Source of the DNA: Pseudomonadota bacterium
Lineage (GTDB): Bacteria; Pseudomonadota; Alphaproteobacteria; UBA2136; JAPKEQ01
Assembly: GCA_036141575.1 (NCBI GenBank)
Contig: JAYZXF010000011.1
Location: 1 to 64,000, forward strand
Direction of reading: 5' to 3'
Length of the DNA: 64,000 bases
The notes below the pieces were generated by a model, which searched no databases, was not told the origin of the DNA, and saw nothing but the letters and a program-made list of their open reading frames with translations. How positions within the stretch are numbered: position 1 is the stretch's first letter; each line of letters begins with the position of its first letter. A program made the position numbers and the translations under genes. Shown here piece by piece: positions 1,573-34,158 of the stretch.

Positions 1573-1637
1573 AGCCATTAATGTGATGCTTCATAAGCTC
1601 ACGGGTAGAAATATTTTTAACTTTAGGGGAATTTTAA

Positions 1638-2246
1638 ATGACTCATTCTAAAAAACAAATGAATGCTGGTTACACGATTGATCAGACGATTCTTATCATC
1701 GCGATTATTGCGATCTTGATTACAATTATTATTGCAACAGTTGGTTGGGACCTTCTACAACGTGCTGGTGGTGCAAAAGTTGCTTCTCATCTGCGCCAAG
1801 TTGAGGGCGCTATTGGTGAGTTTTACTCTCGCCATGAACTCTGGCCACATGAAGCTCAAGCTGCACCAACTAACGCCAACAACGCACGTATCTTAAACGT
1901 TGCTAGTGTAGGTAACGCTGGTGGCTTCCAAGCCGCTGAACACAAAGCTGCCCTACCTGCATACGTTGATAACGCTGCCGGTCTAGAGCACGGTCTGGGT
2001 AACACTGCTGCAGGTTTCCTAACACTTGCTGTTGAATCGGGCCCGATTGCTGGTTCTGTTTGTGACCGTACAAACGTTGCTGAGAGTGTTTACGTAATCA
2101 CAATGGCTGACCTAACACTTGATGAGGTTGTACGTGCTGACGCTTCTCTGGATGGTGGTGATGGTAACGCCGCTGGTCGTCTACGCTGGCCTGCTGCTGC
2201 GACAGCCAACGATGCTGACATTACTTTCTGTGGTAACAGATTCTAA
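1638..2246 (+). CDS. Probable major type IV pilin with atypical cleavage region
   Basis: This is a 202-residue protein with a short basic leader ending in Gly (MTHSKKQMNAG), then YTIDQ and a long Ile-rich hydrophobic helix, the layout of a type IV prepilin. The expected Glu at mature position 5 is Gln, with Asp at position 4. The globular part is Ala/Gly/Asn-rich and has a pair of cysteines (SVCDRT and TFCGN) that could form the C-terminal disulfide typical of type IVb pilins. It lies directly after the secretin and before the assembly ATPase. A GGGG-containing purine stretch about 8 bases upstream of the ATG serves as ribosome binding site. Codon choice looks biased to a restricted set, which fits high expression. 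That it is the major subunit is inferred from its position and size. Confidence 0.75.
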   Translation: MTHSKKQMNAGYTIDQTILIIAIIAILITIIIATVGWDLLQRAGGAKVASHLRQVEGAIGEFYSRHELWPHEAQAAPTNANNARILNVASVGNAGGFQAAEHKAALPAYVDNAAGLEHGLGNTAAGFLTLAVESGPIAGSVCDRTNVAESVYVITMADLTLDEVVRADASLDGGDGNAAGRLRWPAAATANDADITFCGNRF

Positions 2247-2261
2247 TTTAGAGTCTCGTTA

Positions 2262-4385: not shown

Positions 4386-4432
4386 AATGAAGTTAGGTTA
4401 TAACTTTTATTTGAGGGAAGTCTTTACACCTT

Positions 4433-5518
4433 ATGGGTATTGAAATTGGACGCACCAGTTTAGCGCTAGATGATCGGATTGAATTTTTCCGATCTCTTGC
4501 TTCATGGTTACAATCTGGTGGTGGTTCTATGCCTGTGCATGAGGCCCTCAAAAACACGTGTGACTCATTTTCTCGTGATGAATATCGCACACTAAAGTCT
4601 AAGTTTGATAAAATATATAATGAATTTCATTCTGGTCAAACAACGATTACAGCAGGTTTGCGTTCATCAAACTTAGGGTTTATGCACCAAGAACTTGCTA
4701 TTTTAGATGCTGCTGAAAAAGCAAACCAGCTTCGTCTTGCTGTTCCTGCCCTTGTAGAAGCCCTTGAAATGCGTGCAAAGGCAACAAAAAGCCTAAAAGG
4801 TAAACTGACAATGCCACTTGTGGGTGGTTTTATGCTTATTCTTATGTCGATTGGTGTATTGGTATTTATGATGCCGACGGTTATGGAGCCTGTACTTTCA
4901 CGTGATGCTTCAAAGGTTGATTCATTCCCGAGTATTATCCGTTACTATTGGTACCTTTCTGTTTGGATTAGGTCTAACCCTTGGATTGTGACAGGGTTCT
5001 TCTCTGCACCTATTCTTTTCTTCCTTTTGAGAAAGGTTTCATTTGTAAAGCCTCATTATGAAAAAATGATGATGGGTTTTGGCCCTGCTCGTAAAATTAT
5101 TATCTCTTTTAACTCTGTATTGGTTGTGTACTTTATGCCTGCACTTGTACGTGCTGGCATGCCATTACCAGAGGTATTAAAAGCGATTGCAGAACTTTTA
5201 GATAACTCAAAAATTAAAGGTATTTTTAGCCGAGCTGCCATTGATCACGAACAAGGATACCGCCTTGGTGAAGTTTTAGAGGGTGTTCCTTTTAAAGGGG
5301 CCTTTAGAAGTGCTGTAGAGGCAGGAGAGAAAACAGGTATGATTGCAGAAAGGGTGGAAGATCTAAAGACACCATTTCTAAATGATTATGAACGTATTGT
5401 TAAGAAAAGTGTATCAGCACTTATGATGATTGTTATGGGGCTTCTTATGCCAATGTTCCTTATGAGTATGTACACAACTCTTGTAACCCCGATGATTGCA
5501 CTGATGGAGTACTCATAA
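4433..5518 (+). CDS. Inner-membrane platform protein (GspF/PilC/PilR family)
   Basis: This 361-residue polytopic protein has the GspF layout: a cytoplasmic helical domain (residues 1-120), a hydrophobic segment around 125-150, a second near 185-205, a repeated cytoplasmic domain with a GMPLPEVLKAI-type motif and a VEAGEKTGMI motif, and a last membrane segment at the C-terminus. The G-E-x-T-G type motif is diagnostic for the family. It anchors the assembly ATPase and pilin extraction at the inner membrane. The gene sits 47 bases after the ATPase and one base before the next gene, so it is almost certainly in the same operon. The start is set by a GAGGGAAG stretch upstream of the ATG. Confidence 0.9.
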   Translation: MGIEIGRTSLALDDRIEFFRSLASWLQSGGGSMPVHEALKNTCDSFSRDEYRTLKSKFDKIYNEFHSGQTTITAGLRSSNLGFMHQELAILDAAEKANQLRLAVPALVEALEMRAKATKSLKGKLTMPLVGGFMLILMSIGVLVFMMPTVMEPVLSRDASKVDSFPSIIRYYWYLSVWIRSNPWIVTGFFSAPILFFLLRKVSFVKPHYEKMMMGFGPARKIIISFNSVLVVYFMPALVRAGMPLPEVLKAIAELLDNSKIKGIFSRAAIDHEQGYRLGEVLEGVPFKGAFRSAVEAGEKTGMIAERVEDLKTPFLNDYERIVKKSVSALMMIVMGLLMPMFLMSMYTTLVTPMIALMEYS

Positions 5519-5519
5519 A

Positions 5520-6662
5520 ATGTTTTTAATTTCATCCGCCGGAGTTCACGTTCCATTACCTGATAAAGGTGATGCAGTCGGCATGTTTGTGCCCAATAAT
5601 GCTGTGACACGCCGCTATAATGATATTCAAAACCCTTCAAAAGGTGCTGTGAAATCTCGCGTAGGGCTAGATGGTGCTGAGCAACCGCTATGGCGTATGT
5701 TTGAGGATAGAAGTGTAGAGTTTTATGGATCTGTTAACGAGAGTGTAACAGAGCGCCGTTCTTCTGTTTCTGTTTACTTACCAAAAGATTTCCTTCCAGA
5801 AGGTTATAGTGTTTTTTACTACGTGTTTAACGATCGTTGGGTCGTATATGGTGAGCGAATTCTATCTGATGAAGGTGTTGCCAGTTGGGTTTATACGAAG
5901 TTTGATGCAGATGGTGAGGACCTCGCAGACTTTTTAATTGGGACAATTTCTGACCGCCTTGTAAAAGGGGTGAGGGAGCGTATTTGTGTTGCCGTTGAAA
6001 ACTGCCCTCAATCTGAAGGCAACTTAAAGGATAACTTAGAACCTTTTGATATTGAGGTTATGCCATTTTCAAGCCTCAAAGTTGCTAAAGTTAAGCCTGT
6101 TTACCAGCATAGAGACTTTGGTCTTGTTATGCTTTTAGGTTTTTTGTGCGGTTTTATTATGATGGCAGCAGCAACAGGTATTTTTGCAAAAAGTTACTTT
6201 GAGCTGACCTCTGTTGAAGAAGAAAATGCCATGATTAGAGGCCAGATTCGTGAAATGCAGAGGCAGATGGTTCTGGGACAGATTGCAGATCCTGATTCAG
6301 TACTAAAGCTAATTAAACAGGAAAAGACAGTTAAACCTTCTTCACTGATTCATGAAACAGGTACGATTGCAGCAATGTTTGGCAATTTGGAAGAAATGAA
6401 AGTTTCTTATCAGGATGTAAATGGTAGAGTTAGTCAGGGTGGCGGTAAAGCTGTTCCTGGAATTCTTGGTTATAGAAATAATAAAGAAATTTTAACAATT
6501 GCTACTGTTGGTACAGAGACGCCCCAAATGCTTGTAGACCAAGAAAGGGTGGCGGCTTCTGTTTTGAAAAATAGAGAGCATGTGAGAGAGATTACAAGAA
6601 CCAGCTCGGATATGGCGACGCTAGATCTGTCTATTAAAATGCAACTGGGGGCACAAAAATGA
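5520..6662 (+). CDS. Bitopic pilus assembly protein (PilM/PilN- or GspL-like position)
   Basis: The protein has 380 residues: a cytoplasmic N-terminal domain of ~200, one strong membrane helix (about 202-225, LVMLLGFLCGFIMMAAATGI), a short coiled coil and a periplasmic domain. This is the topology of GspL or of fused PilM/PilN, which couple the ATPase to the periplasmic alignment complex. I do not recognise a clear actin-like nucleotide motif, so the family assignment rests on topology and gene order (after the platform protein, before PilO- and PilP-like genes). It starts one base after the previous stop and overlaps the next gene by the four bases ATGA, so translation is probably coupled. 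Confidence 0.6.
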   Translation: MFLISSAGVHVPLPDKGDAVGMFVPNNAVTRRYNDIQNPSKGAVKSRVGLDGAEQPLWRMFEDRSVEFYGSVNESVTERRSSVSVYLPKDFLPEGYSVFYYVFNDRWVVYGERILSDEGVASWVYTKFDADGEDLADFLIGTISDRLVKGVRERICVAVENCPQSEGNLKDNLEPFDIEVMPFSSLKVAKVKPVYQHRDFGLVMLLGFLCGFIMMAAATGIFAKSYFELTSVEEENAMIRGQIREMQRQMVLGQIADPDSVLKLIKQEKTVKPSSLIHETGTIAAMFGNLEEMKVSYQDVNGRVSQGGGKAVPGILGYRNNKEILTIATVGTETPQMLVDQERVAASVLKNREHVREITRTSSDMATLDLSIKMQLGAQK

Positions 6663-7195
6663 CGCGTTCAGGTTTTAGACGGTTATGGATTTTAGTGCTT
6701 GTGGTGCTTATGGGGGCTTCATACCTGATTTATAATAAAACATCAGATAAGCAGCTTCAAATTAACTCGCAGTTACAAACTAAAAAGCTTCTTATTTTGC
6801 AGCGCGAATCAATTCAATCAATGGCTGAAAAGCTAAAGTATATTGATGAGCTAACACTTCATGAGCAAGATGCGACGCGTTTGGATATTTTGAAGTTCCT
6901 ATCCCTTGAAGAAGATCGATCTTTTGAGTTTGTTCCTGGAACAAAAATATATTTGCCAGTAGGGAGTGTTCAAATTTATGAGCGTGGGTTTGATCTAAAA
7001 GGAACGATGCCATACAAGCAAATGCAAAAGAAGCTAGATGAACTTTATGAAAATGAGCGCATTGTTCTGAAAGATATTGAAATTGAGCATGTTGATGAAC
7101 CAGGCTCACTTGTTCGGGTTAAGGTTGCAGCCAAAATGTTTGCTCTAGATAAAGGGCAAGCCTATAAGAGAAATATTATTAGGAGAAAGAGATAA
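6659..7195 (+). CDS. PilO/GspM-like alignment protein
   Basis: This is a 178-residue protein with one N-terminal membrane helix (about 9-26), a coiled-coil stretch (residues 35-65) and a small alpha/beta periplasmic domain near 90-165. Length and layout match PilO or GspM, which form periplasmic heterodimers linking the inner-membrane complex to the secretin. Sequence identity to known members is not obvious by eye, so the call rests on topology and its place between the bitopic protein and the PilP-like gene. It overlaps its upstream neighbour through ATGA and its downstream neighbour through TAATG, a tightly coupled operon. Confidence 0.55.
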   Translation: MTRSGFRRLWILVLVVLMGASYLIYNKTSDKQLQINSQLQTKKLLILQRESIQSMAEKLKYIDELTLHEQDATRLDILKFLSLEEDRSFEFVPGTKIYLPVGSVQIYERGFDLKGTMPYKQMQKKLDELYENERIVLKDIEIEHVDEPGSLVRVKVAAKMFALDKGQAYKRNIIRRKR

Positions 7196-7815
7196 TGCTT
7201 CGTAAAGTATGTTTGGTCGCAGTATTTACCTGTTATGCTGCCTCTTCTTTCTCTCAATCTGCTGAGCCGTTTTGGCGTGTACTTGCGGATGAAACAGACG
7301 TTTCGATGCCTGCTTACAATGGAGAAAGATCCCCGTTTCCTTACGTAGAGCCTCCAAAGGTAGAAATTGTTGAAGTTTTTAAAGAGCCAGAAATTATTTA
7401 TGATCCGAGCTTGATTGAACGTGAGGCGCGCAATAAAAAAGCCGCAGAAATTTTAGCTGAAATTAGAGATATCCTTCTTTCAGAGACAGCCTTCAATCCT
7501 GATTTGAGTAATGTTGTTGTCAGTGGTGTTATTAAAGGTGAAAGAGGTAACTCTGCGCTGATTGATAACCAGTGGGTCGGGTCTGGAGAAGAGCTTAAAG
7601 TTCCCGTTCAGGCTGTAGACCGTCTTGTTGGCCTTGTCGGCTACTTGAGATCTTTGAGCCCTGATCTATCTGAGAGCGTTCAGCAGAAAATTGATATTAA
7701 GCTTGCTGAGATTGGAAGGTTTAAACTTCGTTTAGATCGTATTGAAGAGAGAAGTGTTGTTTTTAAAGATAACAATAACAAAACATATGTCATTTTATTT
7801 GAGCATATGAGTTAG
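7195..7815 (+). CDS. PilP/GspC-like periplasmic protein
   Basis: This 206-residue protein has an N-terminal signal-like segment (MLRKVCLVAVFTCYAASSFS). A Pro/Glu-rich linker and helix follow, then a C-terminal beta domain beginning around VVVSGVIKGERGNSALIDN with a GSGEELKVPV turn and a final RSVVFKDNNNKTYVI strand pair. This is the homology-region fold of PilP/GspC, which binds the secretin N-domains. It follows the PilO-like gene with a TAATG overlap, the usual order (N-O-P). The signal sequence could be an uncleaved anchor. Its C-terminal pattern resembles the end of the 690-residue protein at 30194-32266. Confidence 0.6.
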   Translation: MLRKVCLVAVFTCYAASSFSQSAEPFWRVLADETDVSMPAYNGERSPFPYVEPPKVEIVEVFKEPEIIYDPSLIEREARNKKAAEILAEIRDILLSETAFNPDLSNVVVSGVIKGERGNSALIDNQWVGSGEELKVPVQAVDRLVGLVGYLRSLSPDLSESVQQKIDIKLAEIGRFKLRLDRIEERSVVFKDNNNKTYVILFEHMS

Positions 7816-7855
7816 TGTGAAACCTCATAAATACTAGGGTAAAAGGAGGTTTTTT

Positions 7856-8842
7856 GTGCAAGTTATCTATATCATGGGCGTATTTATGTTTGTATTCTCT
7901 ATTGTTATGGGGCTTACAACCACTTTGACGCGTTCCGCTATGCAGAATAAACTTGATAGTATTGCTCAAGTTGAGAGCATGTTTTTAGATATTGAGCGCG
8001 GCACAAATAATGGTATTTTAGCCAATCAAGCTGATCTTAGATATCTTCACAACCATTTTCGAAATGGTGTTTCGAATGAATTTTCACAAAATGCGACAAC
8101 GCGGGCAGCTAGAGATGGCTTTAATGCGGCCCTTCTCGACTATGTAAACTGGAGTGAAGATCAGTTACGTACTGACCCTTGGGGGACGCCTATGCGCGTT
8201 TATTACTCAACAAGCTATAGATTTTTAGATGCAGGTGTGCAGGCGCCTATTACAACATTTGCATATATTTCTGCAGGTCCTAACAAAGGGTTTGAGGCTT
8301 CATCAACGCTGGCAACTGTGAATACCAATAATATTACAGCAATGGAGGTCTCTGCTGGTTCAGATGATATTCTGTATGTGTTTAGCACGTATGATGCAAT
8401 GGCGAGAACGTGGAATATTTTAACAAAGGCAGTGGATGGTGTGATTGGTCTTATTCAAACGGACTATTCAGATCAATATGCGGAATTTTTACCACAAATT
8501 GAAACCTATAACGCGGGGCGTTTTGCTGCAGATCCAACATTTGGCTTTGATAACGCAAGTTTAAATGAGTGGTTGACGGCTCCATCACTTACAGGTCTAG
8601 CAGGGTACCCAACATTACCAGACGGAACGGCTGGCGTTGCAGCTGTTGGTGGGTCGGTATACTTTAATGGAGCACCGCTTTTTAATATTACGCCACCTGC
8701 TAATGTTGTGACGATTAACAGAACAAATGCATTTACTGCTCAAGTGGGAATTAATCTGTCTGCAGCAGGTGCGCCAGCACTTATTGGGTGGAATATTAAC
8801 TATATGCGTACGATTGATGGACGCTCAATTGTTTCAAACTAA
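7856..8842 (+). CDS. Large pilin-like (pseudopilin) protein, GTG start
   Basis: This 328-residue protein begins with GTG, supported by an AGGAGG seven bases upstream. The hydrophobic helix starts almost at the first residue (QVIYIMGVFMFVFSIVMG), so there is no ordinary basic leader; if there is a processing site it would be the Gly at residue 8, and no Glu follows at position 5. A GspG-like DPWGTPMRVYYS motif lies near residues 104-115, as in pilin-like proteins that carry the same element. It precedes two further pilin-like genes and is probably a minor subunit. The pilin assignment is an inference from the helix, the DPWG motif and the neighbours. Confidence 0.6.
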   Translation: MQVIYIMGVFMFVFSIVMGLTTTLTRSAMQNKLDSIAQVESMFLDIERGTNNGILANQADLRYLHNHFRNGVSNEFSQNATTRAARDGFNAALLDYVNWSEDQLRTDPWGTPMRVYYSTSYRFLDAGVQAPITTFAYISAGPNKGFEASSTLATVNTNNITAMEVSAGSDDILYVFSTYDAMARTWNILTKAVDGVIGLIQTDYSDQYAEFLPQIETYNAGRFAADPTFGFDNASLNEWLTAPSLTGLAGYPTLPDGTAGVAAVGGSVYFNGAPLFNITPPANVVTINRTNAFTAQVGINLSAAGAPALIGWNINYMRTIDGRSIVSN

Positions 8843-8853
8843 GGGGTAGGGTT

Positions 8854-10017
8854 TTGAAAGATATGCAAAAGAAAAGCGCAGGTTTTACACTGCCAGAGAT
8901 GATTCTAGTTGTTGTGGTTTTGGGGATTTTCTTAACGATGGTTTTTCCAGATATTACAAGGCTGATACAGTTTAATGCCGCTAAAATTCAAGAAGCAAAC
9001 ATGAAAGACATTCAGCTTGCTGTTGAGGCGCGTGCAAAAGACGCTGATGCAATTCGTGCTGATGGTGCTGTACTTACAGATGTAAGCAATACCTTGATTA
9101 ACTATCTAAGTCCTTACACGCGACTCCCAAGGAACCGTATTGCTGAAGATGAGTGGGGGCAGCCACTTCTGTTAGAACATGCTGTTGCTTTTGATACATA
9201 CCGAGGTGTTTCTATTACTGTAAACTACTTTGCAGCCCTTTCAACTGGGGTAAATAAAGCACGTGATACGGCGCAAGGTACAGCTTTCCCTGGTGCTGGT
9301 GGGTTTGGCGCAAACTTAACGGCTGCAAACTACGCTAACCTTGCCGCTGCTGGTGATGATTACCTTATTAAATTTACAGATTACCCGCAAAAAATTGCGG
9401 TTATTGATGACGCGGTGAAGAAGTTAGAGGCTATTGAGAGGCGTTTGGAAGCTTACGCTGAAGCGCGTTTTGCCGAATATATTACAGTGAAAGAAAACTG
9501 GTGTACAACGGCACCTCGTACGACGACATACAGTAACGATCTTCTGGCGTGTTATGCAGGTGAGTTTGCCGCAGGTAATCAGCAAGATGAAAACAAGATT
9601 GTATTTTACCCTGCCGACCAAGTGGATAGTAACAACTCTCGAAGAAACGTTTATGGACGTAGTGCTGGCCCAGGGTCTGATCGTACCAACACGGCTTATG
9701 CAACAAACCTTACATTTACTGATGGTGTAGACGTTGCTGCAAACTCTATTGCTGAATTTAATCCCCATACGGCGAATACAGAAAACTTTATTTCAAACTC
9801 ACATAACGCAGCAAACCGAAACAACCGTGGGGCTGCAATGGTTAGGCTTATGCGCATTATTGGTCTGCCTGATGATTACTGTTGTACTTCAGACGGTGAA
9901 CCTTTCTATTATTACTCACTTCCTGCAAATTCAGGATCAGATTGTGTGCGTGCGAACAGGCCTTGGCTTGGAGATATTAAGAAGCCACCAATTGTGAGCA
10001 TTGAAGCACGATGCTAA
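8854..10017 (+). CDS. Large minor pilin / pseudopilin with GFTLPE cleavage site
   Basis: The N-terminus KKSAGFTLPEMILVVVV is a canonical prepilin site: cleavage after Gly, Phe at +1, Glu at +5, then a hydrophobic helix. At 387 residues it is about twice the size of ordinary pilins. A DEWGQPLLLE element near residue 105 corresponds to the GspG DPWG motif. Several cysteines are present (ENWCTT, LLACYAG, YCCTS, DCVRAN, EARC), consistent with disulfides outside the cytoplasm. A TTG start at 8854 sits seven bases after AAGGGG; an ATG at 8863 is the alternative. It is paralogous to the next gene: both end with an IGLPDDYCC / LGLPSRYCC segment. Confidence 0.8.
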   Translation: MKDMQKKSAGFTLPEMILVVVVLGIFLTMVFPDITRLIQFNAAKIQEANMKDIQLAVEARAKDADAIRADGAVLTDVSNTLINYLSPYTRLPRNRIAEDEWGQPLLLEHAVAFDTYRGVSITVNYFAALSTGVNKARDTAQGTAFPGAGGFGANLTAANYANLAAAGDDYLIKFTDYPQKIAVIDDAVKKLEAIERRLEAYAEARFAEYITVKENWCTTAPRTTTYSNDLLACYAGEFAAGNQQDENKIVFYPADQVDSNNSRRNVYGRSAGPGSDRTNTAYATNLTFTDGVDVAANSIAEFNPHTANTENFISNSHNAANRNNRGAAMVRLMRIIGLPDDYCCTSDGEPFYYYSLPANSGSDCVRANRPWLGDIKKPPIVSIEARC

Positions 10018-10038
10018 GAGGTTAAAGGGGTAGCATAT

Positions 10039-11184
10039 ATGACATATCAGCAAAAAAACAAAGGCTTTACCCTTCCAGATGTAATTCTGGTGATGGCAAT
10101 CCTTGCTGTGCTTATTACATCGCTTTACCCAAGTTTGAGCAGTTACTTGCTGAAAGGTAAAGAAAAGGAAGAGTTAAACAGGCAAATTGAGATTGTTGAT
10201 GCGTTTGAGTCGTACTTAAGTGCTGTTGGAGAATTTCCAACACTTCCGGCAACTGCCAATATTTTGAATGCTCCTAACTTTAATAATGCTTGGACACGTG
10301 TCAGCACGGTATTTTCGAGTGATACAACTGTAACAAACCTTTCTTTAAGTGATATGCAAACGGATGAGTTTGATCAAACTCGTTTGCTCTTAACAGATAC
10401 ATCAACTGTAAACTTCGCAGGTGGAACATATAATGTCTACTACATTGCTGTAGTCTCTCTTGGAGCTGATGGATGTTTTGGTGTGGAAGCTAACCCTGCA
10501 CCGCCTTGTGATAATGTAGCGCCAACAAGTCTTGCAGATGTTGATGGTGCGCCAGCCTTTACAATTAATGACTATGACTCTCTTGTTGCGGCAGCAGGCT
10601 CAGATGACATTATTACCAAATATACAGATGCCTCCGTTAAAACTCAGTCTTATAACTCGCTCCTCTTGCAGATTTCATCAATAGAAGAGGCTTTGGATCA
10701 GTTTGCTTATCAGACAAGGAAGCGTGCTGAAACAATTATTGAGCGAGAGTGTCAGGATAACCATGTGTCTCTCACATACTCAATATATAACTGTTATTCA
10801 GATATTAGAACCAACACTGCGCCAGGGAATGCTGTGGCAACTGTTATGCCGGATACTCAGATATTTGTTCCACCTTCAACAGGTGAGGTTATGGCAGACT
10901 ATGATGTTGTTTTGTTAGGGAGTCGATATATTCAGGACGAAGTAAGAACGGCGACTGGTGCTGTGGGTACGTTGCGTAACCGTATTTATAATACAGATGG
11001 CGCAAGCCAAGCTATTATTCGTAACCGTAAAGATGGTATGGTCGCTCTTATGTCTATTTTGGGTCTTCCAAGCCGTTATTGTTGTAATCCACTGGATAAA
11101 TATTTTGATCATACGACAAGGAAATGGGAAAAAATGCCATTATTTTACCAATCTAACCCGCGTCGTGTGAGTGTTGCTCCTTAA
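10039..11184 (+). CDS. Large minor pilin / pseudopilin with GFTLPD cleavage site
   Basis: The N-terminus KNKGFTLPDVILVMAIL is a prepilin cleavage site with Asp instead of Glu at mature position 5. The 381-residue length, internal Cys pairs (ERECQD, IYNCYSD) and the YCCNP motif near the C-terminus match the preceding gene, so the two are paralogues. Asp at +5 is rare in major pilins but occurs in minor ones, and could place this subunit at a fixed position such as the tip. AAAGGGG lies eight bases before the ATG. The function as a minor pilin is inferred. Confidence 0.78.
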   Translation: MTYQQKNKGFTLPDVILVMAILAVLITSLYPSLSSYLLKGKEKEELNRQIEIVDAFESYLSAVGEFPTLPATANILNAPNFNNAWTRVSTVFSSDTTVTNLSLSDMQTDEFDQTRLLLTDTSTVNFAGGTYNVYYIAVVSLGADGCFGVEANPAPPCDNVAPTSLADVDGAPAFTINDYDSLVAAAGSDDIITKYTDASVKTQSYNSLLLQISSIEEALDQFAYQTRKRAETIIERECQDNHVSLTYSIYNCYSDIRTNTAPGNAVATVMPDTQIFVPPSTGEVMADYDVVLLGSRYIQDEVRTATGAVGTLRNRIYNTDGASQAIIRNRKDGMVALMSILGLPSRYCCNPLDKYFDHTTRKWEKMPLFYQSNPRRVSVAP

Positions 11185-11186
11185 AG

Positions 11187-11594
11187 ATGTTTGATTTATT
11201 GCTTCAGGAATTTCCACTATATGGAGCGTTTGCTCTGTTCGCTTTCGGCACTATTATGGGATCTTTTATACATTGTATGGGGTATCGGGTGGCTATAGGT
11301 ATGAGCTTGCGCACCCCTCCAAGCCAATGTGGCTCCTGTGGACGAACGCTTAAGGCAATCGATTTAATACCAGTTATTTCTTACCTTATGTTTCGTGGTA
11401 AATGTCGTAAGTGTGGTGCACGATTCTCTATTATTTATGTTGTGATTGAGGTTTTGGCAGGTGCCGGCTATCCGGTTATATATTTTGCGACACATAGTTT
11501 TGTGTGGGCTTCAATTACTGTGGCATTTTGGTGGCTGGCTCTTTATAGGTTTTCATATCTTTTGCATAAAAAGACAGCGATTCATCAGGAATAA
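11187..11594 (+). CDS. Stand-alone prepilin peptidase N-terminal (DiS_P_DiS) domain protein
   Basis: This is a 135-residue membrane protein with a hydrophobic start containing GTIMGSFIHCMGYR, followed by two Cys pairs, CGSC and CRKC, separated by the LIPVISYLMFRGK stretch, and then two more membrane segments. This is the N-terminal zinc-binding domain of type IV prepilin peptidases, where N-methylation activity has been placed. The aspartyl protease part (first Asp and the GxGD motif) is absent because the gene stops at 11594 and the next gene starts at 11668. It starts two bases after the preceding pilin-like gene. A separate catalytic peptidase must act elsewhere if the pilins are cleaved. 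It could also be a decayed pilD. Confidence 0.8.
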   Translation: MFDLLLQEFPLYGAFALFAFGTIMGSFIHCMGYRVAIGMSLRTPPSQCGSCGRTLKAIDLIPVISYLMFRGKCRKCGARFSIIYVVIEVLAGAGYPVIYFATHSFVWASITVAFWWLALYRFSYLLHKKTAIHQE

Positions 11595-16410: not shown

Positions 16411-16443
16411 AAAAAAGTGGCCGCTTGCGGCCACTTTTTTTTT
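16411..16443 (+). terminator. Rho-independent terminator between traA-like and traL-like genes
   Basis: GTGGCCGC (16417-16424) pairs with GCGGCCAC (16427-16434) over a TT loop, followed by a run of nine T and preceded by six A. Its place inside the operon suggests partial termination that favours the pilin transcript. Confidence 0.9.
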
Positions 16444-19559: not shown

Positions 19560-21311
19560 ATGCTGAAACTTTCTCCACAACAAAAACAAGCTGCAACTCA
19601 TCAAGGTCATAGCCTTGTTTTGGGTTCTGCGGGAACAGGTAAAACAACTGTTCTTTGTGAAAAGGTGAAACAGCTTTTAGATCGTGATATTGAAGGTCGC
19701 GATATTTGTGTGGTTCTTTTTACTTATAGAGCTTGTTTACATGTTGAGGTGGCCCTGCGTGAATACCTTGGTGAGCGTGCAGAGCACGTTACTGTTGTCA
19801 CGCTAAGAGATCTTTGTCTTGAAACTTTAAAAGATGTAGAGCTTGAGGATGCTGTGGCAGATGGCCAAGATATGCGACGTATCTTGCGTTATGCAATGCG
19901 CTCTGTAGAGTTTGCGGGCACAGTAAAAGAAGCAGAGCATATTATTCGTAAGTTTTACGGCCAAATGGAAGAGCCGCAAGAGAATGAACGTCACGCAAAT
20001 TTATTTACAGCTTATCAAAACTATATGAAGCAATATGGCTTTATTGATCGTTTTGCTTTGATTCGCAAATCTTTGGCTTTGTTAGAGTCAAGTGAGGCCT
20101 CTAAAGTTCCTTATCAGCATATTATTGTCCCTCATGTACATGAGGCAACTCCTGTGCAGCTGATGTGGCTTCTTAAGCATCATGATAGTGCAGAGCTCAC
20201 TTGTTTTGCAGATGATAATCAGCACTTGTTTGTACATGATGGTGCAATAGGTGGCGGTGTTGTGAAGCTTTTACAGGAAGAGCATGGTTTTCCATTGTTC
20301 CACCTTGAGACGAATTATGTTCAAGATCAGGGCATTGGGCGGGCGGCTGAAAATTTTGTTGCAGGCGCTAAAGGGTATGTGAGAAAGAAAATACAGTTCT
20401 CTCGTTCAGGAAAAGGGCAGCTTCAAACGCGTATATATAAAAGCTATGCAGATGAAGTTTCTGCTCTGATGAGTACGATTCATGAAATTCTTTCAAAAGA
20501 TGACTCACAAAAAATTGCTATTTTAACGCGTCATGATAGAGAGGCTCAGCGTATTGAGCGCGTGCTTCGTACAAAGGGCTATGGAGCGCATATGGCCTCT
20601 CGTGCAACACCTATTTGGGAGTTCCCTGGGGCTATTCTTGTACTAGATCTTCTTGATCTTCTGTTTGATCAAGCAAAGCCACAGCAACTCATGAATATTC
20701 TTACATCGTTTGGTATTAGCCACTCATTAACGCAAATCCTGTTTAGAGAAGGGCTTGTGTCTGAGAAATGGCTTGCAGAGGGTGCGCCAATCCCGAAAGG
20801 GTTAGACCTTCCTAAAAATGTCTTCTCTGAGCTTCAGCTTGTAAGGTCTAGATTAACGAAGCCGTATGAAATTCTTGTGAAGCAGCAAGCACCTTCACGT
20901 GATGTGTTTAAATCAATTGTTTTTGACCTTCTGCAAAGTTTGGGCGAGGAGGCTAAGAGAGATGCCCTTATTGCGACCGAGTTTGTTCTATCGTTTGAGG
21001 GTAAGGTTAAAGACCTGCCATCTGTCGCGAGAAAAACCTTTAGTGATTTCAGTAAAGATAAGCCAGTGGTGGTATCACCTGTTCATACAAGTCAGGGCCT
21101 TGTCTGTGATGTTGTAATCATTCCGTTTGTCTCTGAGGGCATGTTCCCGTTCACAGGCTATACATCCATTGGTAAAGATATGCACCATGACCGTCGTTTG
21201 ATGTATCAAGCCATCACGCGTTCAAAACATCAAATTATCCTCTCTTGCCATGGCGAGCCTTCACCATTTATGGATGAGTTAAAAGCGCTCTTTTCTCAAG
21301 TAAGCCATTAA
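19560..21311 (+). CDS. UvrD/Rep-like SF1 helicase with degenerate motif II
   Basis: The protein has 583 residues, shorter than UvrD (~720). Motif I is GSAGTGKTT at residues 22-30 with a preceding Q-motif (LSPQQKQAA). The position expected to hold DExQD reads IIVPHVHEATPVQ (residues 188-200), so the Walker B Asp and Glu are replaced by Pro and His. Later motifs are recognisable: ADDNQHLF (III), AILTRHDREA (IV), VSPVHTSQGLVCDVVII (V, with Val in place of the usual Glu) and RRLMYQAITRSK (VI). It may bind DNA or ATP without normal unwinding. Its presence between T4SS genes suggests a role in handling DNA or in regulation; that is inference. A GAGG lies seven bases before the ATG. Confidence 0.8.
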   Translation: MLKLSPQQKQAATHQGHSLVLGSAGTGKTTVLCEKVKQLLDRDIEGRDICVVLFTYRACLHVEVALREYLGERAEHVTVVTLRDLCLETLKDVELEDAVADGQDMRRILRYAMRSVEFAGTVKEAEHIIRKFYGQMEEPQENERHANLFTAYQNYMKQYGFIDRFALIRKSLALLESSEASKVPYQHIIVPHVHEATPVQLMWLLKHHDSAELTCFADDNQHLFVHDGAIGGGVVKLLQEEHGFPLFHLETNYVQDQGIGRAAENFVAGAKGYVRKKIQFSRSGKGQLQTRIYKSYADEVSALMSTIHEILSKDDSQKIAILTRHDREAQRIERVLRTKGYGAHMASRATPIWEFPGAILVLDLLDLLFDQAKPQQLMNILTSFGISHSLTQILFREGLVSEKWLAEGAPIPKGLDLPKNVFSELQLVRSRLTKPYEILVKQQAPSRDVFKSIVFDLLQSLGEEAKRDALIATEFVLSFEGKVKDLPSVARKTFSDFSKDKPVVVSPVHTSQGLVCDVVIIPFVSEGMFPFTGYTSIGKDMHHDRRLMYQAITRSKHQIILSCHGEPSPFMDELKALFSQVSH

Positions 21312-25576: not shown

Positions 25577-25606
25577 AAAAGGGGTTGCTGATTGCAATCC
25601 CTTTTT
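25577..25606 (+). terminator. Rho-independent terminator before traB-like gene
   Basis: GGGGTTGC (25581-25588) pairs with GCAATCCC (25594-25601) with one G-T pair over a five-base loop, flanked by A4 and T5. It separates the exported Cys protein from the traB-traV-traC unit. Confidence 0.85.
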
Positions 25607-25698: not shown

Positions 25699-27168
25699 AT
25701 GACTGATGAATATGAAAAGCAACAGTCTTCAGAAAATGCTGAGGGATTACAGTTAGCTGTTCAGCGATTTAACGAGCTCCCACCTGCTGGTAAGTATGCC
25801 CTGATCGGGGTTGGTCTTTTCTTTGTTATGGTTATTTTATTTAGAGGTGGTGGCGGTGGCTCTCAGCCTGCGCCTCGCGTTGTACAATCAGATGTCTCTC
25901 GTGCAAGTGTTCAAAGTCTTGAAAAAGCTAATTCATCTCAAGAGGATTTGTTTACAACTGTTGAGGCGGAGCGTGATTCGTTGTATCGAGGGTTTGTGTC
26001 TCAGCAACAGGTTGCTTTATCTAAGCTCAGAGATGATGTGAAAACCGAAATGGATGCACGTGATTCCCAGTTTTTAGAAATTCAAAACCGTGTGATTGAG
26101 CAAACATCCAAGCTTGATGAGATGATCCGCACATTTGAGGTACAGATTCGCTCTATGCAAGAAGATAATGTTGAGTTTAGAGAGCAGATGAGTCGTCTTG
26201 CTGAAGAAGCTCAACGTCAGGGTGTTCGCCAAGGTATGGGTATGGGTGGTACGCCTGAACGTAGAAGGCAGAGAGTTTCTCAAACCCCTTTAGGTAGTGG
26301 CGGCGTTGCTGGCGGTATCAGTGGCCAACCGCTTATTCCTGGAATTATTGGTGGTGCAACGGGTGGTAATGTGCGCCTTGATAGAAATGGAAACGTTATT
26401 GGTCCTGTCCCTCAAGAAATTATTATTGATGAGCCTAACCCATTTTTACCTCCTCTTGGCTTTATTAAAGGCACGCTTCTTAACGGTGTAGACGCCCTTG
26501 CAGGGGCGGGGGTTGCAGCTCCAGCGCTTGTACGCATGTCTGGTGTTTATAAAACAGCTATGAACTCTACGGTCAATCTTGATGGGTGTTTAATGCTTGT
26601 TGAATTTGAAGGTGAAATTTCAACTGAACGTGCATTAGGTAAACCAAGCCAAATGACATGTGTGTACCCGGACCGTGGTGCTGTAACGTACTCTGTAACA
26701 GGTTATGTTGTTGATGCTAAGGATGGTATTGTTGGGGTTCCAGGTGTGTTTTATGAGGGGGATCCAAGTAGGCTTGCTGCTGCCTTTGCTGCAGAATTCC
26801 TTGCGGGTGTCGCTTCTCTTGTAGAAGAAAGCCAGGTTACAAGAACATCTGACCTTGAAGGTAATGAGCAAACAACAGTTACAGGAAGCCAAGTACAGGC
26901 ACAGCTGGCAAGTGGTGTGAACGACTCTATTCAAACGTTAAGAGATTATTTGGTTGAACGTTTGGACCGTGTACAGTCATTTATTCGCTTAGACTCTACA
27001 CGTGATATTCACATTGTTATGTTGAGTGGTATTGAACTGCGTGAAGCAGGAAACCCTTGGACACTTCTGTTTGATGGTATTGCTTTAGATACAGCAACAG
27101 AGGCTGCAGAAGCTGCAGCAAAGCAGGCCCAAGCTCAGCAAGCTTCACAACAGAATGAAAACTTTTAA
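25699..27168 (+). CDS. TraB/VirB10-like T4SS core protein
   Basis: This is a 489-residue protein: a cytoplasmic N-terminus, one membrane helix (about 34-51), a Gly-rich linker and coiled coil (residues ~70-175), then the VirB10-type beta-barrel domain. That domain includes GVYKTAMNSTVNLDGCLMLV, STERALGKPSQMTCV with the matched Cys, a VTGYVVDAKDGIVGVPGVFY strand and AAAFAAEFLAGVASLVEE. These are the order and motifs of F-type TraB (LxGC...ERA...C...GYVxGxDG...G). It spans both membranes as the central scaffold. A GTGTGAGGAG sequence precedes the ATG. It heads a unit with the TraV- and TraC-like genes. Confidence 0.9.
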   Translation: MTDEYEKQQSSENAEGLQLAVQRFNELPPAGKYALIGVGLFFVMVILFRGGGGGSQPAPRVVQSDVSRASVQSLEKANSSQEDLFTTVEAERDSLYRGFVSQQQVALSKLRDDVKTEMDARDSQFLEIQNRVIEQTSKLDEMIRTFEVQIRSMQEDNVEFREQMSRLAEEAQRQGVRQGMGMGGTPERRRQRVSQTPLGSGGVAGGISGQPLIPGIIGGATGGNVRLDRNGNVIGPVPQEIIIDEPNPFLPPLGFIKGTLLNGVDALAGAGVAAPALVRMSGVYKTAMNSTVNLDGCLMLVEFEGEISTERALGKPSQMTCVYPDRGAVTYSVTGYVVDAKDGIVGVPGVFYEGDPSRLAAAFAAEFLAGVASLVEESQVTRTSDLEGNEQTTVTGSQVQAQLASGVNDSIQTLRDYLVERLDRVQSFIRLDSTRDIHIVMLSGIELREAGNPWTLLFDGIALDTATEAAEAAAKQAQAQQASQQNENF

Positions 27169-27195: not shown

Positions 27196-27609
27196 ATGAA
27201 ACAAATCAGAATTTTCGGTGCGATCCTTCTTGTGTCGATCTCTCTTTCTGGATGTAAGTACTATGGTAGTGCTGTTCCACCAGAGTATCCAGTTTCAATG
27301 GATGATGCCTTGGATGTAGCAACGGATAGAAACACTGTTTCAGGCGGTATTCAGCGCCCTATCGTAAGAAAACTTACACGTCCAGCTATTGACCAGCCAA
27401 CATATGTACCTGAAAAAGAGCTTGCGGTTGTCGCACCTCCAAAAACGCTACTTGTATGGTCATACCCTCATGTAACAGATGATAATACACGTGTGTTTGG
27501 TAACTGGTCTACAATCTTTATTAATGATCGATATGAGTGGATTCCACCAAACAATGAAGTTGCAGCAGAAGAAATGACATTTGGAGGGGGCTATGGGGCT
27601 TCTCGATAA
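27196..27609 (+). CDS. TraV/VirB7-like lipoprotein
   Basis: This 137-residue protein has lipobox SISLSGC (Cys20). The C-terminal segment PPKTLLVWSYPHVTDDNTRV resembles the conserved TraV pattern in which a PPxxLxxW(I/Y)xP segment is followed by an acidic turn. TraV is the outer-membrane lipoprotein partner of TraK and TraB. The position between traB-like and traC-like genes matches F. Its stop overlaps the start of the traC-like gene by 17 bases. Confidence 0.72.
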   Translation: MKQIRIFGAILLVSISLSGCKYYGSAVPPEYPVSMDDALDVATDRNTVSGGIQRPIVRKLTRPAIDQPTYVPEKELAVVAPPKTLLVWSYPHVTDDNTRVFGNWSTIFINDRYEWIPPNNEVAAEEMTFGGGYGASR

Positions 27610-30190
27610 GGATGTGCATGCACCAATACGTCCAAACCGTATTGGTGAGCAACTGCCATATTTTGAATATGAAGACAAAGAGGATTCTGACTACCATGGA
27701 TACTATCTCTTAAAAGATGGTTCTCTGGGTATTGCTTGGAAGACTGCTATTCCTCCATCGTACTCATATGACCAAGGGTATTTACAGACGAACAATGAAT
27801 TTAGAACATTCATTGAAAGTGTACCTATGGGCTATGAAGTCCAGATTACGATGACTTCACACAATAACCTGACTGATAAGATGAAAAAGTACCTGTCTCT
27901 TGAGTCAGGTGCTGAAAAAGGGAAAATTCTTCGCCATTCCCGAGCTGAAAAATTGTTAGATGCTGGTTTTAATGGGTATCAAGTGAGTGATGCAAGTTTC
28001 ACAATGCTTCGTGATACTTATATGGTGATTACACTGCGCTCCCCAACATTTATTGAAAATATGGGACTACTTGCAACAGTTATGGAATCACTGTTCCAAT
28101 TGTTTGCAACGGTGTTTAGTGCTGTAGGTTTAGACCTTTCAAAAATGATGGATGGTTTCCTAACCAAAATGGTTCGTGAAAACATGGCTGAATTTTCTGA
28201 GGCTGTGATGTCTGCGGAATCAACGCTAAATGAAATGTTTGGTATTGGGGCGCCATCTCGTATGGACCCTGCGGACATGAAAAGCCATTACTGGACAATG
28301 TATGCGCCATCTTACAAAGAGCCAGGGCAGCAAGTTTCAGTTGACCCTCATGTTGATTTGAACAACCAAATGTTCCCGCTCCCGATTGAACAGGACTTTG
28401 ATATGATCAAGGTTGGGAATGATTATCATGGCCTTGTGATGATGGCAATTATGCCTGACAGTGTTGGCCCTGATTACCTAGGTGTGATTCGAAGAACGCT
28501 GATTACGCAGTACACATTCTTTGTCAATATTGCGCAAGCAAACCAAATTTTTGAACGAGCAGCGTTATCTGTATCTTCAGCACTGCGTAGTCGTGTTGCG
28601 ACGATGTTTTCTAAAGAGGAAGCTGTTGCTTTTGCTGAAGAAGCCTCTCAAGTTAAGTTCCGTATGTTTGATGGTCGTAAAATTCTTTACATTATGTGCG
28701 GCGTGATTGTTCATGGTAAGTCTCGTAAAGAGGTTGAGAACAAGATGCTTCGCATGAACTCTACATTTAAGAAACTTTCTGTGGTTCCTGATATGGAACG
28801 TACAATGTCTCTACAAGGGATTAGCTATAGTTTCCCGCTTTCATGGCGTAATAACTACACGAAGCCATTTGCAAGAACACGTCGTGTCCTTTCAGATGAC
28901 CTCACGGACCTTCTACCTTTCCATGGGCACTGGGGTGGTCACGATTATCCTCAGTCAGTTTATGTGAACCGTGACGGTGAAATTACCTTCTTTGATCATA
29001 CGTCTCCAGATTTTGTGAACTGGCACTACGCGATTACTGGTACTTCGGGTTCTGGTAAATCGTTTGCCGTGGTTGACTTAACGCTGCAGCTTTTTGCAGC
29101 AGGTGTTGAGAAACAGTTCCTGATGACAATTAAGGATGACTACGACCGCTTTGCTCAAACAATGGGTAAACTGGTTATTATTGACCTTGATAACGTTTCA
29201 TCTTGCATTAACCCGTTTGCTGGCCCTATTACAAAGCACCGTTTACAACAATGGTCTACAGCTCTTGAGCTGATGATTCAAAAGGGTAGTGATGTTGAAG
29301 CTAGCATTATGGAAAGCCGCCTAACGGAGCAGATTGTACAGTACGCATATGAGCTTGTACCTGAAGGTGATGTCCTGCGTCCAACATGGATCCGTGAGGC
29401 TTACTTCAAGTTCCCTTATGTAAGTGAAGAGCAGCGTGCGATTGGCTTTAGCCATGCAGAGCTTGTGGGTTCATACTGTGAAGATGGTATTTACGGAAAA
29501 CTGTTTGATGGATTCCCTTCAATTACTGAAGATGACAAGCTTGTTGTCTTTAACCTGCAAAACGTACTGAGTGAAAAGATTTCAGACGTTATTGTAAACG
29601 CGATCTTTACCATGCTTGATAACGTGATGTACATGGGTGACCGTGCGGCTAAGAAGCACCTTCTGGTCGATGAGATGATTACGATGATTACCTCTAAGGG
29701 TGGTGCACAGGTTGCTAACCAGTTGAAACGTGCGTTCCGTACATATCGTTCTTTGAACTGTATGTGTGGTATTGCTTCTCAAAACGAGGAAGATTTAACA
29801 ACTGAGGTTGGTCAGGCTATTATTGGTAACATTACCAAGCGTATGGTCCTTAAACCTCGTCGTGAAATGATTCCTCTTCTCATGGAAACTCTAGGGCTTC
29901 GTAGTGAACGTCACCAAGCGAACATTGAGTCGCTTGAAACAAAACCTGGTTTCTATAGTGAATTTTACCTCATGTCACCATCTGGTGAAGTTGTGTGTCG
30001 CTTAATTACAGATAAGCTGACGTATGCGATTGCAACAACAACACCTGAAGATGTGGCAGAGATTAACCGACTTAGACAAGACAATGGTGGAGATTGGTGG
30101 AAAGCAACATTGCAATTTAGCCAAATCTACCCGCATGGTGTTCGCGCCGCGATTAAAGCCGCACGCCAGCAAGAAGGAGACGCAGCGTAA
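27593..30190 (+). CDS. TraC/VirB4-like T4SS ATPase
   Basis: The protein has 865 residues from the ATG at 27593, which has GGAGGGGG just upstream. The N-terminal half matches the F-type TraC region (residues ~20-330, beginning LPYFEYEDKEDSDYHGYYLL). The C-terminal half is a VirB4-type ATPase: Walker A GTSGSGKSFA near residue 482 and Walker B HLLVDEMITM near residue 690, followed by a CGIASQNEED sensor segment. VirB4 ATPases energise pilus assembly and substrate transfer at the inner membrane. It overlaps the TraV-like gene and is followed four bases later by the next gene. Full-length, with intact motifs. Confidence 0.92.
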   Translation: MGLLDKDVHAPIRPNRIGEQLPYFEYEDKEDSDYHGYYLLKDGSLGIAWKTAIPPSYSYDQGYLQTNNEFRTFIESVPMGYEVQITMTSHNNLTDKMKKYLSLESGAEKGKILRHSRAEKLLDAGFNGYQVSDASFTMLRDTYMVITLRSPTFIENMGLLATVMESLFQLFATVFSAVGLDLSKMMDGFLTKMVRENMAEFSEAVMSAESTLNEMFGIGAPSRMDPADMKSHYWTMYAPSYKEPGQQVSVDPHVDLNNQMFPLPIEQDFDMIKVGNDYHGLVMMAIMPDSVGPDYLGVIRRTLITQYTFFVNIAQANQIFERAALSVSSALRSRVATMFSKEEAVAFAEEASQVKFRMFDGRKILYIMCGVIVHGKSRKEVENKMLRMNSTFKKLSVVPDMERTMSLQGISYSFPLSWRNNYTKPFARTRRVLSDDLTDLLPFHGHWGGHDYPQSVYVNRDGEITFFDHTSPDFVNWHYAITGTSGSGKSFAVVDLTLQLFAAGVEKQFLMTIKDDYDRFAQTMGKLVIIDLDNVSSCINPFAGPITKHRLQQWSTALELMIQKGSDVEASIMESRLTEQIVQYAYELVPEGDVLRPTWIREAYFKFPYVSEEQRAIGFSHAELVGSYCEDGIYGKLFDGFPSITEDDKLVVFNLQNVLSEKISDVIVNAIFTMLDNVMYMGDRAAKKHLLVDEMITMITSKGGAQVANQLKRAFRTYRSLNCMCGIASQNEEDLTTEVGQAIIGNITKRMVLKPRREMIPLLMETLGLRSERHQANIESLETKPGFYSEFYLMSPSGEVVCRLITDKLTYAIATTTPEDVAEINRLRQDNGGDWWKATLQFSQIYPHGVRAAIKAARQQEGDAA

Positions 30191-32284: not shown

Positions 32285-33175
32285 ATGCGCATTGATCTAG
32301 ATAAAGTCCGTCAACTCGGTGAAGAATACGGTTGGGCAATCCCACAAATTGAGCAAGCACTCGCAACAGCTGTGCGTCTATGTTACGCCGACCAAGATAT
32401 GTTGGTTGAAGTTGATGTTGACCTAGACGAAGGTGAGATTGCTTGTCGTCGTTTTACTGGTGATGGCCCAAGCGCCACTTGGACAGATATCCGTAACCCG
32501 CTTATGCCAACAATTAAGTCCTTCATGAAAGTGATGGAGATGGTGCAGTGGGGCGATGGTTCTCCTGGCCGCGTACTTGACGGTACAGTGACAGGTTACC
32601 GTGATGGTGGTGTAATCTACCGTGTTGGCGCTAACATGGTCTTTGTGCCAGAAAACCTTCTTGCTGTTATGGACTACCATACACGTCCTCCTCTTGGCAC
32701 TGAACAAGTTCTTGTTCTTATTAATAGCCGTGAAGGTGGTGAGCGTGGTATGCGTATGGCGACACGCCGTGGTAAAGAGTTTGTTGCTGCTGTTATGGAA
32801 AGTTTCCACCCTGAAAGCCTCAGTGGTATTTGGATGGGTGCATCAAACTCATGGGCAGTTCTGCGTATGAAGCAAGAGCACATGAACACATGGCTTGAGT
32901 CTGGTGGTGTAAACATTAAATACATGCAACAGATTCTAGGCATACGTCGTATTACAGTGATTCCTGAAGGTCGCGGTGAAAATGCTCTCGAGCGTCGTAA
33001 CAACGAAATTGAAACATTTATTTCAAACGCATGGCGTGATTGCCGTGTGGCAAAGCTGGACGATCAGGCAGTGGTGGTTCATACACCGCTGGATAGTACA
33101 GACCCACGTAAGATCCGTACATTCCTGTCAATGCTGAAGAAATTTGCTCCAGATCGCGAGCAGGTTATTCTTTAA
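32285..33175 (+). CDS. NusA-like transcription factor paralogue
   Basis: This 296-residue protein aligns by eye with the first ~300 residues of NusA. The N-terminal RNA-polymerase-binding domain has IEQALATAVRLCY and VEVDVDLDEGEIACRRF. An S1-like domain (GRVLDGTVTGYRDGGVIYRV, VFVPENLL) is followed by the MRMATRRGKEFVAAVM segment, equivalent to the conserved VTRSKPEF region of NusA. A KH-like part (VNIKYMQQILGIRRITVIPE) follows. It is shorter than full NusA (~500) and lacks the C-terminal acidic repeats. It closes the T4SS operon and is followed by a strong terminator. The KH glycine loop GxxG is not evident, so RNA binding may be altered. Confidence 0.78.
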   Translation: MRIDLDKVRQLGEEYGWAIPQIEQALATAVRLCYADQDMLVEVDVDLDEGEIACRRFTGDGPSATWTDIRNPLMPTIKSFMKVMEMVQWGDGSPGRVLDGTVTGYRDGGVIYRVGANMVFVPENLLAVMDYHTRPPLGTEQVLVLINSREGGERGMRMATRRGKEFVAAVMESFHPESLSGIWMGASNSWAVLRMKQEHMNTWLESGGVNIKYMQQILGIRRITVIPEGRGENALERRNNEIETFISNAWRDCRVAKLDDQAVVVHTPLDSTDPRKIRTFLSMLKKFAPDREQVIL

Positions 33176-33197
33176 GTCTTTGTTTTTATTTTAAAGG

Positions 33198-33238
33198 GCA
33201 GTTTTTTCTGGTTTTTTACTAGGAAAAGCTGCTTTTTT
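33198..33238 (+). terminator. Rho-independent terminator after the NusA-like gene
   Basis: GCAGTTTTTTCT (33198-33209) pairs along 12 positions with AGGAAAAGCTGC (33221-33232), two of them G-T, followed by six T. It marks the end of the long + strand locus. Confidence 0.85.
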
Positions 33239-34115: not shown

Positions 34116-34124
34116 ACGACTTAG

Positions 34125-34158
34125 AACACATCCCCTTTTTGGGGGTGTGTTTCTTTTT
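34125..34158 (+). terminator. Rho-independent terminator after PhoH-like gene
   Basis: AACACATCCCC (34125-34135) pairs with GGGGGTGTGTT (34141-34151) over a five-base T loop, followed by TCTTTTT. Confidence 0.85.

Follow-up and report, generated by a model that had tools for sequence, protein, structure and literature searches.

The question raised by this locus is why a pilus and secretion gene cluster ends in a gene whose product resembles the general elongation factor NusA, and whether that product is a NusA working for the cluster. The gene lies in a window of 64,000 nucleotides, the whole stretch of DNA that was analysed (Table 1). The open reading frame is intact, starts with ATG, has 296 codons and begins 18 bases past the stop codon of its upstream partner, as the second gene after the TraC-type ATPase. 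The coordinates, the size of about 300 residues and the place after a traC-like gene given in the initial annotation agree with the list of open reading frames and with the Pfam and NCBIfam matches. The dN/dS values of four orthologue pairs are 0.015-0.07, with dS at 0.8 to 1.7 and so partly saturated; the window gene and its orthologue L019 differ by a dN of 0.027 and a dS of 1.08. The frame is real, conserved and under purifying selection. A membrane helix was looked for in the protein and not found (maximum 19-residue mean hydrophobicity of 1.2), and no signal peptide was seen by eye.

Table 1. Coordinates of the features discussed, in the window unless another locus is named
Feature	Position	Strand	Basis or remarks
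Type IV pilus / type II secretion-like cluster (secretin, ATPase, inner-membrane protein)	112..11594	+	PF00263, PF00437, PF00482
Strong intrinsic terminator between pilus and secretion clusters	16411..16443	+	Hairpin analysis
First secretion-cluster ORF, 89 aa	16460..16729	+	Begins 16 bases past the T tract of the terminator
UvrD-like SF1 helicase of the locus	19560..21311	+	PF00580 6.2e-20, PF13361 8.1e-18
Sigma70-like/ParB-like fusion protein, 707 aa	21412..23535	+	TIGR02937, family profile to Spo0J 1vz0
TraB/TrbI-type secretion protein	25699..27168	+	PF03743 8.9e-10, NF010289 1.1e-14
TraC/VirB4-type secretion ATPase	27581..30190	+	PF19044 1.3e-9, PF11130 7.8e-9
Upstream operon partner, 690 aa	30194..32266	+	N part low-complexity by eye, C part conserved
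NusA-like protein gene	32285..33175	+	ORF; 296 aa, predicted NTD-S1-KH1-KH2 core, no acidic repeats
NusA N-terminal domain (predicted), headless form, residues 1-93	32285..32563	+	AF2 of residues 1-95 alone
S1-like OB domain, about residues 94-158	32564..32758	+	DSSP of AF2 model, VIA ranges
KH1-like domain, motif WMGASNSWA, no GxxG, about residues 159-229	32759..32971	+	VIA, GxxG count
KH2-like domain, about residues 230-296	32972..33172	+	AF2 secondary structure, VIA, GxxG count
Terminator-like hairpin with T tract after NusA-like gene	33193..33237	+	Hairpin analysis
Large S1-KH proteins	L039 6434-10729; L040 6113-10450; L041 15951-23336		P-loop near N-terminus by eye

The gene is not the housekeeping nusA of its genome. 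The assembly (1.85 Mb, 19 contigs, 97.7% complete) contains a single NusA-like gene and a separate nusA (G000:C8:37215+) of 608 codons that matches TIGR01953 at an E value of 7.8e-120. A gene for RimP precedes this nusA, and genes for a small RNA-binding protein and for IF-2 follow it. The housekeeping position with rimP and infB, where the initial annotation had expected a full nusA, is held by this other gene. One relative (G005), rated 97% complete, lacks nusA and suggested that the NusA-like protein might replace NusA. This idea was rejected as the absence is likely an assembly gap, because a proper infB match is missing from G005 too (only 2.9e-12, 32% identity).

The resemblance to NusA is real yet statistically invisible in sequence. 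No Pfam or NCBIfam profile matches the window protein at E≤10, including the curated profiles PF08529 and TIGR01953 by which membership of NusA is judged, and the NusA_N profile PF08529, to which the initial annotation had looked for confirmation, matches none of the 21 family members. A generic S1 model matches two of the 21, with a best E value of 0.11. BLASTP of the protein against the NusA of the same genome gave an E value of 0.32, which is not significant. Profile comparisons with hhalign were run with shallow and then with wider alignments. A NusA alignment kept 12 of 16 NusAs, the partial NusA L057 was left out of hhalign, and the 40 family sequences were reduced to 37 non-identical ones. 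The family matched NusA at an E value of 0.072, and 25 of 200 column shuffles scored equally high; the best path is in register, with positions 6-123 on 6-165. Sequence searches of the PDB with the protein showed no NusA homology. A joint MAFFT alignment of the two families was discarded because its KH region was out of register.

Structural comparisons gave a different result. The AF2 model calculated from 21 orthologues has a pLDDT of 75 and a pTM of 0.55. Foldseek of the whole model against the PDB returned 19 matches at E≤1e-3, the best at 1.4e-10. The titles of 13 name NusA (one of them archaeal), and the other six belong to Nus-factor, antitermination or coupling complexes; we take these chains to be NusA as well. 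The best VIA score of the whole model is a Z of 9.0 to 6tqn_A, and the longest VIA alignments, to several NusA chains, place residues 1-296 of the model on residues 1-339 of NusA, which comprise the NTD, S1, KH1 and KH2 domains. Residues 162-296 superpose on residues 201-339 of NusA (5lm9, VIA) with a Z of 8.2 and an rmsd of 3.2 over 125 aligned residues. The query-normalised TM-scores against long NusA chains are low (0.27-0.33) because the arrangement of the domains in the whole model is uncertain. The model is only moderately confident, and its S1-like domain has low pLDDT in parts, under 50 at residues 128-131 and 147-158. The domain order of NusA is thus found in the predicted model. The segment after S1 that the initial annotation had recognised corresponds to KH1 and KH2, a more complete resemblance than was then seen. 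The likeness to NusA that it had called clear by eye is borne out by the predicted structure, whereas as an alignment of sequences it does not reach significance.

The N-domain, predicted alone from residues 1-95, has a pLDDT of 88.6. Its best VIA match is the E. coli NusA NTD (2kwp; Z of 8.4, rmsd of 3.4, 93 aligned), and VIA ranks 1-10 are all NusA or Nus complexes with Z from 8.4 to 5.4, followed by the first unrelated chain at 5.1. Only two rows reach a Z of 8, below which VIA warns that a match may mean a mere common arrangement, and three rows of NusA or Nus complexes lie below the first unrelated match (7ubn, 4.8; 5lm7, 4.7; 1k0r, 3.5). Foldseek of the N-domain returned nothing at E≤1e-3; its best value was 0.059, with NusA ranking first and second. 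Among the N-domain matches listed there is no clear NusG row, and one chain of a Rho/NusG complex, 6xav_G, has a Z of 3.6. The fold of the NusA N-terminal domain is thus present in the predicted structure, at modest Z. The initial annotation had held that the lack of a profile match to the NusA N-domain would refute the assignment; the profile match is indeed lacking, and the structural comparison of the N-domain was given more weight.

Could the model of a generic S1 and KH protein, unrelated to NusA, look like NusA by convergence? The non-significant sequence comparisons and the modest scores of the N-domain alone are consistent with such convergence, as are ribosomal chains, presumably uS3, which match KH1 alone in the whole-model VIA list at Z up to 8.7, about the level of NusA. 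However, four domains in the order of NusA, the E value of 1.4e-10 for the whole model, and the first rank of NusA in the VIA and Foldseek lists for the N-domain make convergence most improbable. From the predicted structure and the separate full nusA we conclude that the protein is, as had been proposed, a NusA-type paralogue, very diverged and with a complete core.

The paralogue is like bacterial NusA (TIGR01953; PF08529) in its predicted fold and domain order, and unlike it in several respects. It has no detectable sequence similarity to NusA, is only 296 aa long, has no acidic repeats, and has a headless NTD, a form reported for M. tuberculosis and P. limnophilus (PMC4642336). The main departures are in the KH domains. 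At the KH1 loop, GxxG is found in none of the 37 family members and in all 47 NusAs picked by BLASTP for comparison; at the KH2 loop, the counts are 0/36 and 46/47, the family member L037 being cut by a contig end and without KH2. In the AF2 model the first helix and the GxxG loop of KH2 are shrunk to a short turn. The family has a motif of its own in KH1, the stretch WMGASNSWAV, which is invariant and its hallmark, and a DPRKxRTFxSM-like stretch in KH2 is a second hallmark. Charge is a point against the assignment: the NTD of the window protein is acidic on balance, with a net of -8, and basic patches are described on the body of the NTD of E. coli NusA (PMC4642336).

In E. coli NusA, residues L27, L31, I43 and V45 are reported to be affected by RNA polymerase (PMC4642336). 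In a hand alignment of the N-domain they correspond to residues 22, 26, 39 and 41 of the window protein, which are hydrophobic in 21, 21, 19 and 20 of 21 orthologues (I, L or V at 22; L at 26; M at 39, with Q in two and L in one; V at 41, with T in one and A in one). As judged by this alignment, hydrophobic residues at the flap-contact positions are a feature shared with bacterial NusA. These observations bear on the possibility that the protein derives from NusA but no longer works at RNA polymerase, serving the locus instead as an adaptor or post-transcriptional regulator in the cytosol, for example by binding mRNA through S1 or by binding a protein of the locus. The loss of GxxG in both KH domains and the absence of sequence similarity to NusA mean a changed surface, the most invariant stretch of the family is absent from NusA (GASNSW in 0/47), and the gene is tied to the locus. 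Such an adaptor is possible, and the retention and conservation of an N-domain that in NusA binds RNA polymerase (PMC4642336) argues against it.

The pilus cluster at the start of the window has the same gene order in relatives. Its pilin-like and prepilin peptidase labels are our assumption from gene position and appearance by eye. Likewise, the first secretion ORF is taken to be TraL-like by its position, and the labels TraL, TraE, TraK and TraV were assumed from gene position and appearance, without a family match. The TraC-type ORF matches TIGR02746 at 1.1e-52, which is below the curated cut-off. The adjacent ORFs 16784-17422 and 17419-18048 on the + strand have their best matches on one same gene in each of 7/7 upstream regions from relatives; because both match one gene per region, they are probably a tandem duplication in this lineage.

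Two further genes of the locus encode proteins that may act on DNA or transcription. The UvrD-like helicase gene precedes the gene of the fusion protein and keeps its place in all seven upstream regions examined (L133-L139). The fusion protein matches TIGR02937 at 1.7e-7 over residues 48-235, below the curated cut-off, and the profile of its family matches Spo0J (1vz0) at 1.1e-7. The alignments of this family were made from 13 of 23 proteins, and its N-terminal profile from nine. TIGR02937 is found in seven of nine members at E≤0.01, and a comparison of the N-terminal profile with PDB sequences found no match. Pfam Sigma70_r4 matches two of 13 members, and in the window protein it falls within the ParB-like HTH. 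The fusion gene is present in 18/18 genomes of the order.

The NusA-like gene travels with the pilus and secretion locus and closes it, as computed from genomes of the order and class. Sequence related to the upstream partner lies directly upstream of it in 15/20 loci. The usual partner does not adjoin it in 4/19 informative loci: L030 has the gene a few kb off in inverted orientation, and L033, L034 and L035 have another neighbour; L036 begins at the NusA-like gene. On 10 stretches taken from eight other genomes, matches to the proteins of the window keep the order seen there, some genes being undetected and others inserted. Samples of 385 genomes of the class, taken to be Alphaproteobacteria, and 398 of the phylum were drawn evenly from larger sets. 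The NusA-like gene (E≤1e-3), a close TraC (at least 61% identity) and the fusion protein (E≤1e-5) occur in the same nine of the 385 class genomes and in no other. These nine represent seven families and do not count as independent cases; thirteen further class genomes have only TraC relatives of at most 28% identity. This co-occurrence, together with the neighbour in 15/20 loci and the conserved order, upholds the earlier assignment of the gene to a secretion operon. On the downstream side, the gene adjoins a PhoH-type ATPase gene (33300-34115, +), which is matched downstream in 4/20 loci (L019, L021, L022, L023).

The operon position would also suit a structural or assembly protein of the pilus or secretion apparatus that uses S1- and KH-like folds as a scaffold. 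Chains of type III secretion rings do align with the model, 8axn_C to residues 159-228 (Z of 6.9) and 1yj7 to residues 18-75 (Z of 3.8). However, these scores are below those of NusA, the N-domain and the domain order are those of NusA, and the protein lacks a membrane helix and, by eye, a signal peptide, so that a scaffold role is very unlikely.

Orthologues of the NusA-like gene are found in 17/18 genomes of the order; the gene is absent from the remaining assembly (G012), which is 89% complete. Patristic distances of the NusA-like gene and of NusA, compared in the 14 of 18 genomes with both genes readable, are correlated with an r of 0.90, which 0/2000 permutations reached. Inheritance of the gene thus goes along with that of the genome. 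Searches for a viral or plasmid origin did not find one: phage sequences gave no match, no match was confirmed in viral_contigs, and in the plasmid search only an NTPase-like protein of Agrobacterium was matched.

That match belongs to the closest relatives outside the orthologue set. Three large proteins, of Idiomarina (L040), Rhodoplanes (L039) and an Agrobacterium plasmid (L041), also contain the S1-KH half, at their C-terminal end or in that direction. They share with the NusA-like protein the motifs MGASNSW and DxRKxRTFxSM in a homologous KH1-KH2 region; unlike it, they show no N-domain match, are fused to a large P-loop protein and lie outside this locus. Pfam gave weak iSTAND and NPHP3_N matches, below cut-off, in two of the three. 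A gene with the annotation Shedu nuclease is located 8 kb from that of the L041 protein, which is annotated as hypothetical and has about 900 further residues that by eye look like repeated OB-fold domains. The module is rare: among the 398 phylum genomes only the genome of the window itself matched.

These relatives raise the question of whether a module of a conflict system was taken over, in which S1-KH1-KH2 would sense or stop foreign or aberrant transcription in connection with DNA transfer or uptake. Conflict systems of the vWA-MoxR kind are reported to include a NusA-related combination of S1 and KH (PMC7159879), and the closest non-orthologous relatives are parts of large NTPase-like proteins. 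However, the matches to large proteins cover only S1-KH and number three, and a PADLOC search for defence systems gave no match. The gene tree follows that of NusA, which is atypical of defence genes, and an origin in a conflict system is accordingly unlikely.

The predicted core fold and domain order of NusA, the coexistence with a normal NusA, purifying selection and the linkage to the locus are established computationally. The reading that we favour, at about an even chance, is that the protein is a NusA paralogue dedicated to the pilus and secretion locus, which probably binds the beta flap of RNA polymerase and alters pausing or termination. The N-domain would dock on the beta flap of the polymerase transcribing the locus, as the hydrophobic contact-equivalent positions suggest. 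With GxxG lost in both KH domains, RNA would presumably not be read as NusA reads it, which is the less certain step. The protein might then displace NusA, or present its S1-KH half to a protein partner. This would change pausing or termination, possibly with read-through, across a cluster that spans at least 33 kb and includes the gene of the sigma70-like/ParB-like fusion. The simplest effect would be competition with NusA, which has a precedent in principle in LoaP, as LoaP antiterminates by antagonising NusA (PMC12691694). An effect of opposite sign, more pausing, would also be possible because the NusA N-domain, which binds RNA polymerase, is described as both required and sufficient to enhance pausing (PMC4642336).

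Specialised paralogues of NusG that serve particular operons are known. RfaH is a NusG paralogue tied to F-like tra (conjugation) operons (PMC8955417), and ActX of R6K is another, tied to a conjugation operon and with a mechanism given as unknown (PMC13250579). Like RfaH, ActX and LoaP, the NusA-like protein would serve one cluster as the diverged duplicate of a general elongation factor. Unlike these members of the NusG family, the duplicated factor here is NusA, and it is known from sequence and predicted structure. A full-text search of open-licence papers found no specialised bacterial NusA paralogue; the nearest case is a Wolbachia strain that, according to a review, appears to encode two NusA copies (PMC7397232). 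If the protein works at RNA polymerase, NusA too, like NusG, would have been duplicated and specialised. It would offer a natural test of how the NusA N-domain acts without RNA binding by the KH domains, and a secretion machine would be linked to sigma-like and NusA-like factors of its own. A more tentative extension is that the locus has its own transcription apparatus, with the sigma70-like/ParB-like protein choosing or marking the site, the NusA paralogue acting in elongation or termination, and the UvrD-like helicase as a third component. The housekeeping polymerase might then be re-tooled for a single cluster of at least 33 kb by a paralogue that displaces NusA and does not read RNA, a suggestion we regard as equally speculative.

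The terminators of the locus do not call for such a factor. The initial annotation had put forward the hairpin at 16411-16443 as an internal terminator that the protein could help transcription to pass. This hairpin is located between the pilus and the secretion clusters. A hairpin of this kind stands ahead of the first secretion gene in five of eight genomes, the window included, and was missed in L136, L137 and L138. Its stem sequence differs in the relatives, and the stretches L133, L134 and L139 have no other strong hairpin. Only 16 bases separate its T tract from the start of the first secretion gene, so the promoter of this gene either overlaps the hairpin or lies upstream. A weak promoter-like sequence, TTGCGG-17-TATAGT, was read by eye and has 8/12 consensus positions. 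It is ordinary to find a strong terminator between operons. The recurrence in five of eight genomes agrees with such a boundary and requires no antitermination, and the idea of the hairpin as an antitermination target was set aside.

The terminator that had been noted after the NusA-like gene was recovered as a hairpin with a T tract. It is not a general feature, because a hairpin directly follows the gene in only 3/14 stretches (the window, L022 and L033). Besides the boundary hairpin, the strong + strand hairpins in positions 1-35100 are at 2290-2316, 25577-25605, 33193-33237 and 34124-34152. The internal and boundary hairpins of the locus need no antitermination factor. The hairpin at 2290-2316 is GC-rich, is followed by T-rich sequence on both strands and falls within the first part of the ORF of the pilus ATPase (2262-4385).
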